Positions 51,625 through 60,666 of a stretch of 64,000 nucleotides of DNA are shown piece after piece (position 1 is the first letter of the stretch; every line of letters begins with the position of its first letter). The notes below the pieces were generated by a model that ran no database searches, was not told the origin of the DNA, and saw only the letters and a list, made by a program, of their open reading frames with translations. This DNA is from Acidobacteriota bacterium (GTDB taxonomy: Bacteria > Acidobacteriota > Blastocatellia > RBC074): positions 186,001-250,000 of the forward strand of contig JACPYM010000002.1 of the NCBI GenBank assembly GCA_016196035.1, in the 5' to 3' direction. Position numbers and translations under genes: made by a program.

Positions 51625-52728
51625 ATGGCTACGGAAACGGCAACGGCCAACATCACTGAAGAAATTGTTTTGAATGCACTGCGGGCGGTCAAAGACCCCG
51701 ATCTGCACAAAGACATCGTCGCGCTCAACATGATTCGCGACATCAAAATTTGCGGTGGCGTCATCGGCTTCCGCTTCGTGCTGACGACACCCGCCTGCCC
51801 GGTGCGCGATCAATTGAAATTTGAAGCCGAGAAGGCTGTGATGTCCATCCCCGGCGTCGAACAGGTCGAAGCCAAGATGGAAGCCGAGGTGCCCAAAGCC
51901 AAAGGCAACATTGACAAGGCCGCGCTCGAAGGCATCAAGCACATCATCGCCGTCAGTTCCGGCAAAGGCGGCGTGGGCAAATCCACTGTCGCGGTCAATC
52001 TGGCCGTTTCGCTTTCGTTGATGGGCGCGCGCGTCGGCATCGTGGACACGGACATTTACGGCCCGAACGTGCCGATTATGATGGGCGGCAAGGATATGCC
52101 CCTGGTGCGCGGCGAAAAGATCATTCCGCCGGTTTATCACGGCGTCAAAACGATGAGCATCGGCTTGCTCAACCCCGGCGATAAAGCCATCGTCTGGCGC
52201 GGCCCGATGCTGCATTCGGCGGTCAACCAATTCCTGCGCCAAGTCGAATGGGGCGAGTTGGATTACCTCGTCGTGGACATGCCGCCGGGCACGGGCGATG
52301 TGCAATTGAGTCTGGCGCAGATGGTCGCCATCGCGGGCGTAGTGCTAGTCACGACACCGCAGGAAGTAGCGCTGGGCGATGTGCGCAAGGCTTACAACAT
52401 GTTCGAGCAGTTGCAGGTGCCGGTCTTGGGTATCGTTGAGAACATGAGCTATTTCGAGTGCCCCAACGACGGCATCAAGTATTTCATCTTTGGCAACGGC
52501 GGCGGCGAAGCGCTGGCGGATCGGTATGAAGTGCCTTTCCTGGGCGGCATTCCCATCGCCATCGCGATTCGTGAAGGCGGCGATCTGGGCATCCCCGTCG
52601 TGATTAGCCAGCCGGACGGCGCGCAGGCCAAGGCATTCACCACTGTCGCGCAAAACGTCGCGGCGCAAGTGAGCATTCAAGCGCTGAAAGCAAACAAGGC
52701 GCTGCCGGTTTTGAATTTGAAGAAGTAG
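51625..52728 (+). CDS. Iron-sulfur cluster carrier protein Mrp/ApbC
   Basis: The 367-residue protein has a MIP18/DUF59 N-terminal domain (about 10-90, TTPACPVRDQL) and an Mrp/NBP35 P-loop ATPase domain with deviant Walker A GKGGVGKST (113-121) and VDMPPGTGD (217-225). Such proteins bind and deliver Fe-S clusters. The CxxC pair that normally follows ENMSYF is reduced here to C279-P-N-D282, so the second Cys is an Asp. This pair bridges a cluster between subunits in other members, so cluster binding may use other residues. It follows the SufR-like gene by 35 bases. Confidence 0.93.
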   Translation: MATETATANITEEIVLNALRAVKDPDLHKDIVALNMIRDIKICGGVIGFRFVLTTPACPVRDQLKFEAEKAVMSIPGVEQVEAKMEAEVPKAKGNIDKAALEGIKHIIAVSSGKGGVGKSTVAVNLAVSLSLMGARVGIVDTDIYGPNVPIMMGGKDMPLVRGEKIIPPVYHGVKTMSIGLLNPGDKAIVWRGPMLHSAVNQFLRQVEWGELDYLVVDMPPGTGDVQLSLAQMVAIAGVVLVTTPQEVALGDVRKAYNMFEQLQVPVLGIVENMSYFECPNDGIKYFIFGNGGGEALADRYEVPFLGGIPIAIAIREGGDLGIPVVISQPDGAQAKAFTTVAQNVAAQVSIQALKANKALPVLNLKK

Positions 52729-52856
52729 GTTTTAGACTCCGATTGCAAATTTGAAATTGGAGATTTGGAATTCGAGATTCGCACTTATAGGCAAAGCTGG
52801 AAGCTGTCGAACAGTCGCCAGCGATCATCAATGACACTATCTAAGGAGAAAACGAC

Positions 52857-53186
52857 ATGAATTTGACTCTGACTGAAACCGCCTTGGGCGAGGTGAAGAA
52901 GTTTATCGAAGCTGAAAACGTCACCCCCGAGGGCGGCTTGCGCGTGCGCGTGGTGCCGGGCGGCTGCTCCGGGTTCCAGTACGCGATGAACATCGAAGAG
53001 GCCGCACAGGCCACCGACGAAGTCGTCGAATCGGGCGGCTTTAAAGTCTTCGTGGACATGTTCAGTGCACAATACCTGGACGGCGTACAGATTGATTACG
53101 TCAACAGCGTGATGGGTTCGGGCTTTACCTTCAACAACCCGAACGCGAGTGGCGGTTGCGGCTGCGGCAGTTCATTCACAGCATAG
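52857..53186 (+). CDS. HesB/IscA/ErpA-type iron-sulfur cluster assembly protein
   Basis: This 109-residue A-type carrier has the three invariant cysteines C37 (GGCSGFQY), C101 and C103 (GGCGCGSSF). It receives and passes Fe-S clusters to apo-proteins. The sequence is of ErpA/IscA type without extra domains. AAGGAG precedes the ATG. An AT-rich gap of 128 bases containing short GAGATT/GAAATT-like units separates it from mrp. A composite inverted repeat follows its stop. Confidence 0.95.
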   Translation: MNLTLTETALGEVKKFIEAENVTPEGGLRVRVVPGGCSGFQYAMNIEEAAQATDEVVESGGFKVFVDMFSAQYLDGVQIDYVNSVMGSGFTFNNPNASGGCGCGSSFTA

Positions 53187-53204
53187 TGATTACAGAACGC
53201 AATA

Positions 53205-53386
53205 CGGTACAGGGAGCGGTAGCAACCTGCTTGTTCGACAAGCTGCCAGCTTGTCGAAGCTTGGCCGTTAGCCAAATGGGTTAACAGCCGGGATTTCGAC
53301 AAGCTGGCAGCTTGTCGAACATACAACCTGATGGCTTCGAGTTCTTCAAGCGTGAATTGACCACGTCGCTACCGCTCCCCGTACCG
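53205..53386. repeat. Composite repeat: family B copy 2 enclosing two 25-base palindromes
   Basis: Outer arms 53205-53223 (CGGTACAGGGAGCGGTAGC) and 53368-53386 match at 18 of 19 positions and belong to the family seen at 9686-9770. Between them are two 25-base palindromes, 53234-53258 and 53295-53319, each TTCGACAAGCTG-x-CAGCTTGTCGAA with centre C in the first and G in the second. They are reverse complements of one another. Confidence 0.92.
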
Positions 53387-53400
53387 CATCCTTTCATCGT

Positions 53401-54483
53401 ATGACTCGACCCGCACTTCAACCTAAGTTTACCCCGCAATTCGACAGCACTGCGCTGCTTGCCGATTACGGCGACGTGCGCGCCGAGTACGAAGCAATCC
53501 AACACAGCACAGCGTTGATTGACCTGTCGCCCGCAGGCAAATTGACGATCAACGGCAAGAACGCCGTGCAATTCATCAACGGCCTGGTCAGCAACGATGT
53601 TAAAACGCTGGCGGCGGGCGCGGGTGTGCTGGCTGCATTCCCTAACCTGCAAGGCAAGGTCGCGGCGCTCGCCAGCATCTACCACACGAGCGACGGCTTG
53701 TTGCTCGAACTCGACGCCAGCAACCGCGCGAAGATTTTCAAGAACCTGAGCCGCTTCGTTCCCGCAGGCGAATTTTTCCTGACTGACATGACCGAGCAAC
53801 TGGCGCTCTTCACATTGCAAGGCTCGCGCAGTGCCGCACTGCTCACGGCATTGGCTGGTCAACCAGTTGAATTCACCACGGCACGCACCATCACGCAAAC
53901 CACATTGACCGGCACGCCCGTGCAAATCGCCGCGCACGCACGCACCGGCCAAGCTGGCTTTGATCTATTCGTGCCGGTGAACGCCGCCGCCGCCATCCGG
54001 CAAGCGTTGCTGACGAATGGTGCGCGGGCCGCCGGGCAAACAGCGCTCGACATCGCGCGGCTCGAAGCGGGCTTGCCGACGGAGCCAGCGGACATCAACG
54101 AGAATTACATCATCAACGAGACCGGCTTGACCGAAGCGGTCAGCTACACCAAAGGCTGCTATCTGGGCCAGGAAGTTATCGCGCGCATTCACTGGCGCGG
54201 CCAACCGGCCAAGCAGTTGCGTGGTCTGTGGATTGACGCCACCGCACCGCCCGCCGCTGGGACCGAACTCTGGGCCACGAATGACAAAGGCGAAAGTAAG
54301 CAGGTCGGCGCAATCACCAGCAGCGTGCGCAGCCTGGCGCTAGATCGCGTGATCGCCTTTGGCTACGTGCATCGTTATTACCTGAACGCGGGCACGGAAT
54401 TCACCCTCAAACACGGCGAGACGGATTGCGGGCGGGCACAGTTGGCTGAAACGCCCTTCGTCACGACATCCAATGGAAACTGA
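53401..54483 (+). CDS. ygfZ: YgfZ/GcvT-like folate-binding protein of iron-sulfur maintenance
   Basis: The 360-residue protein has the folate-binding GcvT-like fold and the YgfZ signature KGCYLGQE (251-258) followed by VIARIHWRGQPAKQLRG. YgfZ supports repair or synthesis of iron-sulfur proteins such as MiaB and is needed under oxidative stress. It begins right after the composite repeat and has no visible ribosome-binding sequence. It overlaps the small gene that follows by 11 bases. Confidence 0.92.
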   Translation: MTRPALQPKFTPQFDSTALLADYGDVRAEYEAIQHSTALIDLSPAGKLTINGKNAVQFINGLVSNDVKTLAAGAGVLAAFPNLQGKVAALASIYHTSDGLLLELDASNRAKIFKNLSRFVPAGEFFLTDMTEQLALFTLQGSRSAALLTALAGQPVEFTTARTITQTTLTGTPVQIAAHARTGQAGFDLFVPVNAAAAIRQALLTNGARAAGQTALDIARLEAGLPTEPADINENYIINETGLTEAVSYTKGCYLGQEVIARIHWRGQPAKQLRGLWIDATAPPAAGTELWATNDKGESKQVGAITSSVRSLALDRVIAFGYVHRYYLNAGTEFTLKHGETDCGRAQLAETPFVTTSNGN

Positions 54484-54766
54484 ACCCAAAGCACCCAAAC
54501 CGGAATTGACGGAACTCGATCTGGAAACAGCCGAACTGTTTTATACGATCATTTCGCGTTACGTTGACCACACTCAGATTTCCGGGCTGGTCATCGCGCA
54601 ACTCGCCGCCCGCCTGGGCGAAGAGGGCGTCAAACCCATCGCGCAAGGCGAATACTGGCAAGGCTACATGGCCAGCCGCCACATGCTGAACGATGCCAAA
54701 GAAGACATCGAACGGCTGACCCGCTTGATCGAACGTATGCAGCAGCAACGCGCAACAACTGACTAA
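54473..54766 (+). CDS. Small conserved-looking protein, 97 residues, function unknown
   Basis: I do not recognise a family. The protein is helical and acidic, with a C-terminal helix (AKEDIERLTRLIERMQQQR) that may form a coiled coil. It has no signal peptide or metal motif. Its start overlaps the end of ygfZ by 11 bases, so it is probably translated with it. A related but weak inverted repeat follows at 54778-54839. Confidence 0.6.
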   Translation: METEPKAPKPELTELDLETAELFYTIISRYVDHTQISGLVIAQLAARLGEEGVKPIAQGEYWQGYMASRHMLNDAKEDIERLTRLIERMQQQRATTD

Positions 54767-54777
54767 AACTATTTCGC

Positions 54778-54839
54778 CGCAGATGACCGCAGACAAACGC
54801 TGATTCGGTTCAATCTGCGTTCCTCTGCGTTGATCAGCG
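54778..54839. repeat. Imperfect inverted repeat of CGCAGAT-type units
   Basis: Left arm 54778-54805 and right arm 54812-54839 match at about 22 of 28 positions. Both are loose tandems (CGCAGATGACCGCAGAC and complement). It belongs in style with the heptamer-built repeats elsewhere in the window. Confidence 0.65.
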
Positions 54840-54867
54840 GCTGATTTGCAAAGGAGCTTCTTCACCT

Positions 54868-55197
54868 ATGCCCAACTACGGCATCATCAACGTCACCGAA
54901 CTCAAAGCCAAATTGGACGCAGGCGACAAGTTTCGCCTGATTGACGTGCGCGAACCATCCGAACATCACCACGCCAAAATCTCCGGCGCGGAACTCAAAC
55001 CGCTCGGTCAGATCACGCAATGGATGCAGGAACTCGCTGACAAAGACGAAGAAATCATCCTGCACTGCCATCACGGCATGCGTTCCGACCGTGCCTGCCA
55101 GTTTCTGGCGGCGCAGGGCTTCACGAATCTGAAAAACCTGACAGGCGGGATTGACGACTGGTCGTTGCACGTTGATCCGTCCGTGCCCCGGTATTAG
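54868..55197 (+). CDS. Rhodanese-domain protein
   Basis: The 109-residue single-domain rhodanese has LIDVREPSEHHHAKISGAELKPL near the start and the active-site loop HCHHGMRS with catalytic C67. It can carry a persulfide sulfur. Its position next to the iron-sulfur genes suggests sulfur transfer in cluster or thiolated-tRNA synthesis, but this is only contextual. GGAG lies 11 bases before the ATG. Confidence 0.9.
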   Translation: MPNYGIINVTELKAKLDAGDKFRLIDVREPSEHHHAKISGAELKPLGQITQWMQELADKDEEIILHCHHGMRSDRACQFLAAQGFTNLKNLTGGIDDWSLHVDPSVPRY

Positions 55198-55202
55198 CCG
55201 CG

Positions 55203-55574
55203 ATGGCCGCCGCTGACTTACCGCCGCAATACCTGCACGGCCTCGCCTTATTCAACGCGGGCGAATTTTATGAATGCCACGAAGTGCTGGAAGAGTTGTG
55301 GCAGCAGGCAGCAGGCGACGAACGGCAGTTGCTGCACGCGCTGATTCAAGCGGCAGCGGCGTTTCATCATTTCCAGCGCGGCAATTTCAAAGGCGCAATC
55401 GGCGTCCAACAACGCGCCCTCACCAAACTCAGCCAATTGCCAACCACTGTTTTGCAACTCGACACGCAGGCCTTCACGCTGGACTTGCAACGCTTTTTCG
55501 CTCAAGCTTCGCCTGCGTCGAATCAAACACTCCCATTTCCTAAAATTCAATTGCGTTATGACTGCAAAACTTAG
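55203..55574 (+). CDS. DUF309 domain protein
   Basis: The 123-residue protein has the DUF309 signature: ALFNAGEFYECHEVLEELWQ followed by the second helix pair LLHALIQAAAAFHHFQRGNFKGA. DUF309 proteins are small helical proteins with conserved His/Glu residues, of unknown function. It begins six bases after the rhodanese stop and overlaps the next gene by 17 bases, so it is in the middle of an operon. Confidence 0.85.
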   Translation: MAAADLPPQYLHGLALFNAGEFYECHEVLEELWQQAAGDERQLLHALIQAAAAFHHFQRGNFKGAIGVQQRALTKLSQLPTTVLQLDTQAFTLDLQRFFAQASPASNQTLPFPKIQLRYDCKT

Positions 55575-56046
55575 ATTGGCAATCGTGAGTCTCTGGCTAG
55601 GCCTGATGCTGATGTTCAGCGTCGGCGTCGCACCCGCCGCCTTCTCCGTTCTGAAAGACCAACAACGCAAGGCTGGCGACATCGTCAACCTGGCGCTCGG
55701 CGGCGCCGAAATCGCGGGCATCATCTGCGGCCTGCTCTTGTTGCTGTTGCTGTTCATCAGCAAAGAACAGCGCGGCAAGCTCTTCAACATCGAGGCGCTG
55801 TTGCTGGCGTTGATGACGCTGGCGATGCTCGTTTCAAAGTTCGTCGTTTCGGCCAAGTTGCACGCGATGCGGGCCGAATTCGGCGAGACCTTGCAAACGA
55901 TGGCGGCGAGCGAACCGGCCAAGGTGGCGTTCAATCAATTGCATCAGTATTCGGTCTGGCTGATGAGCTTCGCGATTCTGGCGGCGCTGGTGTTGATCGT
56001 GCTGTTGGTTCGCGCCACGCCCGCCGCAAAGACAAATCATGCTTGA
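55558..56046 (+). CDS. DUF4149-type membrane protein
   Basis: The 162-residue protein has four membrane helices (about 5-28, 47-66, 75-97 and 135-155), with the N-terminal GLMLMFSVGVAPAAFSVL segment typical of DUF4149. It shows no catalytic motif. It overlaps both neighbouring genes and lies between DUF309 and rluD-type genes in one operon. Confidence 0.82.
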   Translation: MTAKLRLAIVSLWLGLMLMFSVGVAPAAFSVLKDQQRKAGDIVNLALGGAEIAGIICGLLLLLLLFISKEQRGKLFNIEALLLALMTLAMLVSKFVVSAKLHAMRAEFGETLQTMAASEPAKVAFNQLHQYSVWLMSFAILAALVLIVLLVRATPAAKTNHA

Positions 56047-56983
56047 TCCCGAACGCCTCAGCTTTGAGTTTCGCTACGACGAAGAGTTGCCGCCCAAAGT
56101 CCGCCCGCCGCGTCTGGATGAATTCATCGCGCGGGAGTTGCCCAAAATCAGCCTGACGCGCCTGCGCCGCTTGATTGCCGAGGGCGACGTGCTGGTCAAC
56201 GGCGCGGCTTCGCTCAAGGGCGAACGGCTCAGGCACCACGATCAAGTGACGGTCAAATTGTTTGCGGCGGAAAAATCTTCAGCCACGCCGGAGCAAATCC
56301 CGCTCGACATCTTGTACGAAGACGCCGACCTAATCGTCGTCAATAAGCCGGTTGATCTGCTGGTGCATCCGTCGAACAGCGAGAAATCGGGTACGCTGCT
56401 CAACGGTCTGGCTTATTACTTTTGGGAACAGCAGGGCGAAGCGGTGCGGCCCGGTCTGGTGCATCGGCTGGATCGCGACACTTCCGGCGTAATTGTTATC
56501 GCCAAAACGCCGCGCGCCCATCGCACGCTGTCCAAACACTTCCGCGAACGCTGGGTCAGGAAATTTTATGTAGCGTTGGTCAGCGGCGTCGTGGCGCAGG
56601 ACAGTGGCGAGATTGATGCCCCGATTGGCAGCGATGCGACGAAATGGCCGCACTGGTGCGTGCAACCGGTTGAACAGGGCGGACGCGCCGCGCAAACGCG
56701 CTATCGCGTCAAACAGCGTTTTGCCGCGCATACGTTGCTGGAGTTGGAGCCGCTGACCGGGCGCACGCATCAACTGCGCATTCATTGCCAATTGATCGGA
56801 CATCCCATCGTGGGCGACCCGCATTATCACAACGGGTTTGATCCGCTCGTCCGCCAGCACAAACTGAAACATCACCTGCTGCACGCGGCGCGGCTGGTGT
56901 TCAAACATCCGGCAACGGGCAAGGAATTGGACATGCAAGCGCCAATGCCTGCGCCAATGCGGCAGATCATCGAGGGACTTTGA
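56039..56983 (+). CDS. RluA-family pseudouridine synthase with S4 domain (RluD type)
   Basis: The 314-residue protein has an S4 RNA-binding domain (about 24-75) and a pseudouridine synthase domain with catalytic D145 in HRLDRDTSG and the typical GRTHQLRIHCQLIGHPIVGDPHY. RluD modifies helix 69 of 23S rRNA; other members modify other sites, so the exact target is uncertain. The start overlaps the DUF4149 gene by eight bases, and the stop overlaps the next start by four (TTGA). Confidence 0.92.
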   Translation: MLDPERLSFEFRYDEELPPKVRPPRLDEFIARELPKISLTRLRRLIAEGDVLVNGAASLKGERLRHHDQVTVKLFAAEKSSATPEQIPLDILYEDADLIVVNKPVDLLVHPSNSEKSGTLLNGLAYYFWEQQGEAVRPGLVHRLDRDTSGVIVIAKTPRAHRTLSKHFRERWVRKFYVALVSGVVAQDSGEIDAPIGSDATKWPHWCVQPVEQGGRAAQTRYRVKQRFAAHTLLELEPLTGRTHQLRIHCQLIGHPIVGDPHYHNGFDPLVRQHKLKHHLLHAARLVFKHPATGKELDMQAPMPAPMRQIIEGL

Positions 56984-57885
56984 ACAGCTACGACATCATC
57001 ATCATCGGCGGCGGCCCGGGCGGCATCAGCGCCTTGCTCTGGTGCCATGCGCTGGGGCTGCGCGGTCTGCTGCTGGAACAAGCGTCTGAGCTGGGCGGCC
57101 AGATGTTGCAGATGTTCCACCCGGTGTTGGATTACCCCGGCTTGCTGCCCGCTGATGGCCGTGAGTTGCGCGATCATTTCGTTCAGCACTTACAGCAACT
57201 ACAACTCGAAATCAGAATCGCGGCGCAAGTTCAAGCACTTGATTTGGCCGCGCATCGAGTCTGTTGCAATGGCGAATGGCTGACTGCGCGCGCGCTCGTC
57301 GTGGCCACAGGCGCGCGCCAGCGCCGCTTGGGCATTCCGGGCGAAACGGAGTTTGCTTTTCACGAAGACCCGCACCCGCCGATGCCTTACGCCAATCAAC
57401 CGGTTTGCGTTGTTGGCGGTGGCGATTCGGCAGTGCAAAACAGTTTGCTGCTCGCGCCGGTGTGCAGTGCTGTTACGCTGTTGCATCGCTCCGATCATTT
57501 TCGCGCACGCGCCGAATGGTTGCGCGCCGCAGAGGCGACCGCCAATCTCACGCTGCTGACCCACACCGCGCCGCTTGAGTTACACGGCACGAACCATGTT
57601 GAACGCGTGCTGCTGGCCGACACACGCACGGGCGCGCGCCGCGAGTTGCCGGCAGCGGCGGTGTTCGTGCGCATCGGCATCACGCCGAATACGGAGTTTC
57701 TGCAAGGCCAACTTGCCTTGGATGAGACGGGCTACATTCGCGTGGATGCCAGGCAACGCACCTCGGTTGCGGGCATTTGCGCGGTGGGCGATGTCTGCCG
57801 GCCCGGTTGTTTGAGCGTCGTGACAGCGGCGGGTCAGGGCGCGGTCGCGGTAAAAACCCTGGCAGCGCAACTGGCGGGACGCTGA
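56980..57885 (+). CDS. Thioredoxin-reductase-like FAD/NAD(P) oxidoreductase lacking the CxxC
   Basis: The 301-residue flavoprotein has an FAD-binding GGGPGGIS at 10-17, ATGARQRRLGIPGE, an NAD(P) motif VVGGGDSAVQNS and a C-terminal FAD segment CAVGDVC. The fold is that of thioredoxin reductase. The CxxC that normally precedes VVGGGDSA is missing; the equivalent segment reads HEDPHPPMPYANQPVCVV. It is therefore more likely a ferredoxin/flavodoxin-NADP reductase-like enzyme or an oxidase than a true thioredoxin reductase. The start is a TTG overlapping the previous stop; no ATG lies nearby. Confidence 0.82.
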   Translation: MNSYDIIIIGGGPGGISALLWCHALGLRGLLLEQASELGGQMLQMFHPVLDYPGLLPADGRELRDHFVQHLQQLQLEIRIAAQVQALDLAAHRVCCNGEWLTARALVVATGARQRRLGIPGETEFAFHEDPHPPMPYANQPVCVVGGGDSAVQNSLLLAPVCSAVTLLHRSDHFRARAEWLRAAEATANLTLLTHTAPLELHGTNHVERVLLADTRTGARRELPAAAVFVRIGITPNTEFLQGQLALDETGYIRVDARQRTSVAGICAVGDVCRPGCLSVVTAAGQGAVAVKTLAAQLAGR

Positions 57886-58353
57886 GGCCGCAACCAGCGG
57901 TCGTCAGCCTGTTCACCGCCGGCTGGCAAGAGAAATAACGCGGCTGGCTGAAAGCCGGATGATGAGGTAAACGCCGGAAGCTTCGCCGCCAACCAAAATT
58001 TTGGCAGGGCAAAATGCAGCTTTGCCGGATTCCGCTTGGGTCTGACACAGAAGTCGCGGTAGAATCCGGCCTCGCAACTGCCAGTTCTGATGATTTCGTG
58101 AAGCTTGCTGGTCGGAGAGGCAGTACAAAATACTTGATGGAATTGCTCCCACATCAAGTTCATCTTTAACAGAAACAGACAATCAGCGATTAACTACCGG
58201 ACAGTATTGATCACCTGAAAATCGAGGTGATGGCGACGCCGGTGAATTCCGTTTCTACTCACAGAATGACCCGGCGTTTTCGAGGTTTGTTCAGCGCCTA
58301 AGCACGTTTAGGCGTTGGCTGAACCAACTGTCCCATTTCCCGGAACGACGACT
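57886..58353. other. 468-base intergenic region with a hairpin before the next gene
   Basis: I see no gene here. A possible promoter is TTGGGT (58036-58041) with TAGAAT (58060-58065) at 18 bases. A bipartite hairpin near the end combines GTTCAGC (58289-58295) with GCTGAAC (58318-58324) and CGCCTAA (58295-58301) with TTAGGCG (58308-58314), sharing one base and leaving a TTG bulge. It ends 30 bases before the ATG at 58354. Confidence 0.5.
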
Positions 58354-60666
58354 ATGATTATTCTGAGTGTCACTCCAGCATCCCTGCCGCATCAGCCCGT
58401 GCCCGCGCCCGCGCGCCACACGGAAATCACGCGTAGAGTTGCCTTTGGGAACTCGCACCTGACAATGTCTGCCGTGTCTGAAGGAGCGCGTTTCGTTATT
58501 CGAGCCACCGCTGCCGCTGCCTTCGCGGTGCAACAGCAAGCGCAGCCGCCGGAACGCCAGCCGGAAAAACCCGCTGTGCCGACAACGGCGCAGGAACAGC
58601 AGGCGAAACCCCAGACGGAACAAACGGCGAATGCACCCGCGCCGGAACGTCAGCCCTTTTTTGAGCGGTTGTTCAATGTTCCGCCAATGCGCACACGGCT
58701 CGAAAAGGCCTTGAACGAAAAGTGGAAATTCACTGAGGTGCGCCCGCGCCAGCTTGAGTTTCTGCTTTCGCCGGATGAAGAAGACGCGCGGCGCTTTTTC
58801 CTGGATGCCGCCAATGCCCGCCAATATCAGCGGCTGGTCAAGGAATTCGGCTGCGGTTTTGAGAATCGGAATGGCGCCATCACCGATGATTCTTTTGAGA
58901 CACTCAGTGAGTATGGTCCGGAACTGCTGGCGCAATACAACGTGCTGATCGAGAACCGCGAGACCATCAAAAAGTATTATGCTGGCGTTTTCCGCGATGG
59001 CCGCATCGGCACGCAAGCGCTCATTCGCATCAGCAATTCCATGTGGTTCGGCCCCTTCGCCGCGCCCAAATTCAAACAATTCGCCAACCTGCTGCACACA
59101 CGCTATCAAGTACCTGATCATGTCATCGGGCCGATGTTGGGCAGCGTGGGCGATTCGTTCTGGCTGCCGCGCGTGATTTATCGCAAGAGCGGCCCGCAGG
59201 AATTCCAGCAACTGCTCAAGAAAATCGCGCCCTCGACCGAAGGCTCCGCCAACGCCTTTGCGCCCGCGCTGCAATTGCTGGTGATCGGCGAAGAGCACAA
59301 AATCCCGTTTAAGACGCTGGATGACTTCGTCGAAACATTGCGCCTGCGCCCGCAGGATTTCGGTCCCTTCAGCGCCGTCATTTATAACCTCGGCGCCTAT
59401 CGGCTGGCCGACGAAATCAAATGCCCGACCTTCGCCCACTTTTTACGGCGCGAACTGGACGAATTCGGCCCCGATATCAATCAGGAATCGGGCCGCCTCT
59501 TCGTCAATTCCTACCGCGAATTCAAAGACAATGCCGAGGCGCTCAACGCGCTGCAATCGCCGCGTTACACCGAAACCAAAGCCTTTTTGAAGAGCGTCGG
59601 CACCGTTTCTTCCTCGGTCTGGAACATGCAACGCATCGCCGTGCTGACCCAAACATTGACGCCGCAAAAACGCGAAAAGATTGCGAAGCTGGCCCGCGAG
59701 TTGTCTTCGGAATTGACCGTCTCCGACGTCATGTTCCTGGCGGACGTTTGCGATAACGAGGAAGAGTGCAAGCTGTTGCTGGATCGCCCAGCCCTGATCG
59801 CCGGTGTCAAAGATATTCCGATTGACCGCATTGTCGAACGCAGCCACAACGATCTGGTCAAAGAGTTGGAACGCGAGATTGACAATGCCAATCGCAACGG
59901 CCTCTATCGAACTATCCGCAAACTCAGAAACATGATTGATGAGGAAAAGCTGGCTTACACCGAACGGGTTGATCCCAGCAAACTGACCAACATCCAATTG
60001 AGCCGCCTGCTGATCTTCCACCGCTCGATTGGGATGCCCGGTTTCCTGGACACCGTCGGCTGGAACGTTTCGCTGGATATGCAAAACGAACGCAGCGAAG
60101 GCGGCGGCTATCTGGGCTACGACAAAGACATGGCCATGGTCACGATGGTGGCGGGCCAACCCGGCGACAACCGCGCCTATCGCCCGATCAACCTCGAACG
60201 CGCCGCCGCCTCGTTAGCGCTCTTCCACAACCACGCCTTTAAGGACACCTTTGCGCAACGCTATCTGTCCTTCCTCACCCGCATGTGGCCGGCGAACAAA
60301 GACAAAGATAAATATGCCGGCCCCAGCGGTTGGTTAGGCGCTGAAAAAGGCGACATCACGGCGGCGGCGACATCAGAGTTGCCGTCCTTTATCATCACCA
60401 AGGTGGGGCATCCGCAAAACCCCGATGGCACGCGCAATATGAAAGCCGTCTCGGTCAACTTCGATTGGGTCATCGTTGACCAGCAATCGGGCGAAGCGCT
60501 GCGTTCCGACCGTGGGGTTTATACGGTGCCCTATTACACCGACGAGCAGTTGGGCAAGCTTAAATGGCCTTCGCGCAAAGAGGTGAAGCGGCGCGAGAAA
60601 GAGAGCCGGGAAAAATGTCCGGCGATCTTGACCCAACAGGCTTCGGCGCCCTCAACACAGCAATGA
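58354..60666 (+). CDS. Large unknown protein with candidate C-terminal JAMM-like metallopeptidase domain
   Basis: From the ATG at 58354 the product has 770 residues. Residues about 58-102 form a Pro/Gln/Glu-rich linker (QQQAQPPERQPEKP). Residues about 105-550 are mostly helical and unfamiliar. The C-terminal part has E582 in SEGGGYLGYDK, H625-N-H627 in ALFHNHAFKD and S658...D667 in GPSGWLGAEKGDITAAA, followed by LPSFIITKVG. This order (Glu-x2-Gly-x-Leu-Gly, His-x-His, Ser, Asp) resembles JAMM/MPN or DUF4329-type metalloproteases, but the Ser-Asp spacing is longer than the usual S-x2-D. A TTG at 58315 would add 13 residues. No partner gene is evident. I do not recognise the whole protein. Confidence 0.7.
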   Translation: MIILSVTPASLPHQPVPAPARHTEITRRVAFGNSHLTMSAVSEGARFVIRATAAAAFAVQQQAQPPERQPEKPAVPTTAQEQQAKPQTEQTANAPAPERQPFFERLFNVPPMRTRLEKALNEKWKFTEVRPRQLEFLLSPDEEDARRFFLDAANARQYQRLVKEFGCGFENRNGAITDDSFETLSEYGPELLAQYNVLIENRETIKKYYAGVFRDGRIGTQALIRISNSMWFGPFAAPKFKQFANLLHTRYQVPDHVIGPMLGSVGDSFWLPRVIYRKSGPQEFQQLLKKIAPSTEGSANAFAPALQLLVIGEEHKIPFKTLDDFVETLRLRPQDFGPFSAVIYNLGAYRLADEIKCPTFAHFLRRELDEFGPDINQESGRLFVNSYREFKDNAEALNALQSPRYTETKAFLKSVGTVSSSVWNMQRIAVLTQTLTPQKREKIAKLARELSSELTVSDVMFLADVCDNEEECKLLLDRPALIAGVKDIPIDRIVERSHNDLVKELEREIDNANRNGLYRTIRKLRNMIDEEKLAYTERVDPSKLTNIQLSRLLIFHRSIGMPGFLDTVGWNVSLDMQNERSEGGGYLGYDKDMAMVTMVAGQPGDNRAYRPINLERAAASLALFHNHAFKDTFAQRYLSFLTRMWPANKDKDKYAGPSGWLGAEKGDITAAATSELPSFIITKVGHPQNPDGTRNMKAVSVNFDWVIVDQQSGEALRSDRGVYTVPYYTDEQLGKLKWPSRKEVKRREKESREKCPAILTQQASAPSTQQ

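Follow-up and report, generated by a model that had tools for sequence, protein, structure and literature searches.

The gene at 58354-60666 on the forward strand of the window, which is the whole stretch of 64,000 nucleotides analysed here from an Acidobacteriota genome, encodes a protein of 770 residues whose most conserved region resembles the JAMM metallohydrolases. We read the product as a cytosolic, single-copy and vertically inherited protein, in which a divergent JAMM-like domain would be joined to a helical part that binds a partner or substrate; this complete reading we consider evenly balanced between right and wrong. That the C-terminal domain adopts a JAMM fold, with either of the activities considered below, seems to us moderately probable, and the evidence for its JAMM membership is suggestive.

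The translation of 58354-60666 (forward strand) is free of stops over 770 amino acids; EGGGYLG begins at residue 582, HNH at 625 and LPSFIIT at 676, and S658 and D667 are both present. The initial annotation had described this open frame and all of these residues correctly, including the eight residues that separate S658 from D667. The likely start is the ATG at 58354. In several orthologues a GGAG lies just 5' of a GTG at the position matching this start, and in three of the orthologues a stop codon just upstream of the matching start rules out an extension long enough for a signal peptide; none was found on the protein. Between the host genome (G000) and G003 base divergence at the three codon positions is 0.23, 0.16 and 0.55, and this concentration of change at third positions indicates a real protein-coding gene. 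Two long frames are also open on the opposite strand, at 58291-59439 and 59443-60159 (382 and 238 residues); they are open in the orthologues too and are probably a by-product of codon usage. The features of the gene are as follows.

58354-60666, forward strand: whole gene, 770 codons and a stop; open frame with coding-type divergence and a start supported by orthologues
58354-58473, forward strand: short N-terminal segment (residues 1-40) containing a conserved motif of the P.SLP type; mean pairwise identity 0.41, with P8, L11, P12 and L36 invariant
58474-58650, forward strand: Pro/Gln/Ala-rich linker, residues 41-99; identity 0.23, variable length, pLDDT 23-30
58651-60015, forward strand: helical part, residues 100-554; nearly all helices in the model
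60016-60588, forward strand: C-terminal JAMM-like domain, residues 555-745; most conserved region, with a weak DUF4329 match in one orthologue
60097-60117, forward strand: E582-G-G-G-Y-L-G, with the candidate catalytic Glu; invariant and chosen by a blind block scan
60226-60234, forward strand: H625-N-H627, preceded by a hydrophobic strand and offering two candidate zinc ligands; invariant, both His needed for the DUF4329 match
60274-60318, forward strand: residues 641-655, a variable insert that separates HxH from D667; identity 0.45, with length variation
60325-60327, forward strand: S658; invariant, nine positions before D667 and so out of SxxD register, without effect on the DUF4329 match
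60352-60354, forward strand: D667, candidate third zinc ligand, in an invariant K-G-D-I; placed by the block scan, its replacement hardly lowering the DUF4329 match
60379-60399, forward strand: LPSFIIT, predicted to form the strand that follows the D667 helix and resembling the JAB SYIIVS strand; in both models (low confidence) and in the block scan

The gene is present as a single copy in 8 of the 11 genomes of the host's GTDB family, and the other seven orthologues share 65-72% identity with the window protein. The three genomes that lack the gene are two of genus g2, with a completeness of 92 and 97%, and one with a completeness of 73%. No relative was found elsewhere in the class (162 genomes, searched with each of two parts of the protein), outside this one family in a sample of 396 genomes of the phylum, or in collections of phages, plasmids and viral contigs. 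The named relatives are metagenome-assembled genomes of Acidobacteria, one of them labelled Blastocatellia, and the protein family is so far known only from one family of Acidobacteria. Weak matches in three further genomes (G401, G332 and G158) were taken as chance, since they cover short pieces only and the loci encode an M48-like peptidase and otherwise, by eye, ordinary unrelated genes.

Across the genomes, the C-terminal domain is 75-85% identical to that of the window protein, and the housekeeping ATPase Mrp is 77-86% identical; the two vary in parallel, with G003 high and G004 and G007 low, as expected under vertical descent. On these sequence comparisons, a vertically inherited, lineage-specific gene is the best reading. 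No neighbour is conserved in the whole family, and the flanking genes vary by genome: the close pair L032/L011 has both neighbours in common, one of them an SMC-like gene that adjoins the gene in this pair only, and the pair L028/L013 shares one nearby gene. In the window itself, a same-strand row of genes lies upstream at 51625-57885; its thioredoxin reductase-like product was examined by Pfam, and the others were named by eye (Mrp-type ATPase, IscA/HesB-like, GcvT-like, rhodanese-like and pseudouridine synthase-like).

Conservation is distributed unevenly along the protein. The helical part has a mean pairwise identity of 0.69-0.81, mostly 0.69-0.72, and identity peaks at 0.89 for residues 581-640 and 0.91 for residues 656-685, around the candidate active site, where E582, H625, H627, S658 and D667 are invariant across the eight orthologues. 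The helical part has no credible Pfam match, and no library used here names it, which agrees with the earlier remark that it matches nothing known. In the structure prediction its pLDDT is 70-79 over parts of residues 110-330 and 430-490 and low elsewhere.

The initial annotation proposed a divergent JAMM peptidase on the basis of the order of these residues. A bare E..HxH..D order arises in 12.9% of shuffles of the 770-residue protein, which makes the motif by itself a weak argument; the concentration of conservation at the motif region is the stronger one. A more specific hint comes from Pfam. At E<=10 the C-terminal domain matches a single Pfam family, DUF4329 (E 0.036-0.11), in one of the eight orthologues, at 13.6-14.5 bits and under the gathering cut-off of 28.6; the window protein itself has no DUF4329 match at E<=10. 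The match spans the stretch from E582 to D667. It is lost when either H625 or H627 is replaced in silico, falls from 13.6 to 12.7 bits when E582 is replaced, and is almost unchanged by replacement of D667 or S658. No member of DUF4329 was found in 247 genomes of the phylum.

The same residues are picked by a blind scan for ordered blocks trained on 30 canonical Prok-JAB sequences. Inside the C-terminal domain its best placement is E582, H625, D667 and the strand at 677. The score is comparable to the scores of true RadC domains; the same level was reached in 10 of 300 shuffled sequences and in 10 of 352 unrelated stretches (about 3%). In most orthologues the scan scores higher elsewhere in the full-length protein. 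Family-mean profiles give a weaker result (23/500 and 43/500), the Prok-JAB placement falling elsewhere. Direct profile comparison of the C-terminal domain with Prok-JAB and with RadC was not significant. Three orthologues are also matched by the NCBIfam model LDH_protist (best E 0.0011) and two by RnfG_Methano (0.031); the LDH_protist matches were set aside, on a judgement made without match coordinates, as probable composition matches, possibly to the linker.

Two AlphaFold predictions, from seven sequences each, and two fold searches were uninformative for the C-terminal domain. In both models nearly all of this domain has a pLDDT below 50, because alignments of seven sequences lack depth; each shows, with low confidence, a helix following D667 and then a strand at residues 678-685. 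Fold searches with these models (mostly pLDDT <50 in this domain) gave no match at E<=0.1.

These results must be weighed against a domain that is not JAMM at all, in which E, HxH and D would be conserved for other reasons, either as part of another metal fold or as structural residues of a highly conserved domain. Such a domain is favoured by the absence of significant sequence similarity to any family, by the frequency of the motif order in chance sequences, by the invariance of most columns of the C-terminal region in any case and by the independence of the DUF4329 match from D667. However, the one hint from Pfam points to a JAB family and is anchored on HxH, and the blind scan recovers E582, H625 and D667; we regard the non-JAMM alternative as rather unlikely, though a serious competitor. 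Of the readings available JAMM is the best, because the sole family hint, the blind scan and the invariance converge on the same residues, none of these lines being significant by itself. The earlier proposal is supported in part; D667 stands outside what the DUF4329 match depends on, and S658 does not occupy the position of the JAMM serine.

A second suggestion of the initial annotation, that the protein might have a toxin-delivery part, is not borne out. The protein lacks a signal peptide and any Pfam delivery or trafficking domain, and neither a partner nor an immunity gene is conserved beside its gene. Conservation is highest in the C-terminal domain, which in polymorphic toxins is the variable part. 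An internal role is preferred to that of an exported toxin because the core is conserved, the gene is single-copy and vertically inherited in pattern, and neither a secretion signal nor a delivery domain nor a partner gene was found. The host genome does contain a contractile injection locus (G000:C124:19000-32598, L086), which encodes a sheath, two tube proteins, a CIS_tube/LysM protein, a hub and a spike, together with three long proteins (964, 647 and 756 residues) without a Pfam match. An effector of such a system, with the N-terminal tail as loading signal, a flexible linker and a terminal enzyme, would have an architecture like that seen here, and the spike family occurs in five of the eight genomes that bear the gene. 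But no spike gene is seen in the other three, which include a genome that is 97% complete, the gene and the injection locus are on different contigs, the gene has no conserved neighbour, the terminal domain is conserved and the protein has no similarity to the three uncharacterised proteins of the locus, so that injection is very improbable.

In the internal role that we prefer, the C-terminal residues, about 190 in number, would form a very divergent JAMM/JAB-like metallohydrolase domain holding one zinc ion through H625, H627 and D667. E582 would activate the water, and N626 would take over the bracing that Ser/Thr normally provides, in the manner of the HNH sites of the RadC type. The helical part, of about 450 residues, would bind a partner or substrate and direct the zinc hydrolase domain to its target, and the flexible linker would connect this part to the short conserved N-terminal segment. 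Fold, metal, activity and target are in this scheme what we infer, whereas the existence of the gene, its conservation, its restriction to one lineage and its lack of conserved neighbours are observed directly. If the fold is confirmed, the definition of the JAMM active site would be widened to include a long HxH-to-D insertion and a displaced serine, and a conserved bacterial JAMM protein would be added that has no evident ubiquitin-like or toxin context. It would also offer an initial clue to the function of a protein family that is strongly constrained in its hosts and is named in none of the libraries used here.

The JAMM/JAB motif has been described as EXnH[S/T]HX7SXXD (PMC300881), and the protein agrees with it in part. 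The spacing from E582 to H625 is 43, close to the 45 between E22 and H67 of AfJAMM (PMC300881), and H625-N-H627 provides the pair of histidines with an Asn between them, as occurs in distant JAMM relatives (PMC300881). In contrast, the second His and the Asp are 40 positions apart (H627 to D667) and 11 in canonical JAMM; the third position before the Asp is E, K or N, and the nearest invariant Ser, S658, is nine positions before it. The Pro that follows the histidines in H[ST]HP of Prok-JAB and canonical JAMM is replaced by Ala, giving HNHA.

An HNH-type pair after a hydrophobic strand is shared with RadC (PF04002), whose sequences compared here have Asn between the histidines, and the best profile alignment with RadC lands on HNH; the profile score is not significant, and the HNHPSG...PSxxD of RadC is absent. 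The likeness to DUF4329 (PF14220), equated with Tox-JAB-2 (PMC3482391), is that of the only Pfam family hinted at, which matches the E-to-D stretch and needs both histidines. It differs in that the match is below the curated cut-off, the Asp and the Ser add nothing to it, and the protein studied here is attached neither to Rhs nor to any other delivery part, lacks an immunity gene and has a conserved, not polymorphic, C-terminal domain. Both likenesses bear on a third alternative, an intracellular JAB-fold enzyme acting on nucleic acids, since a nuclease activity has been proposed for RadC and Tox-JAB-2 (PMC3482391). That activity is itself an inference in the same paper; moreover, the analysis of the present protein revealed neither a domain for binding nucleic acids nor a conserved neighbour with a role in DNA processing, the SMC-like gene adjoining it in one pair only, and a nuclease is improbable. 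A peptidase or isopeptidase acting on an internal target would be more likely, solely by analogy with the JAMM superfamily. RadC was not found in the host genome, which has one copy of a separate, ordinary Prok-JAB gene (G000:C84:51906-52256, L001).

The protein also resembles Prok-JAB (PF14464) and AfJAMM in that the Asp precedes a helix and an S-[FY]-I-I strand. Compared with all these families, it may tentatively be placed as a new, lineage-restricted JAMM clade, a placement in which our confidence is somewhat short of even: such a clade would have a rearranged loop at the active site, with about 30 extra residues between HxH and the Asp and no SxxD serine, and would be permanently fused to a new helical fold in the service of a core internal function.
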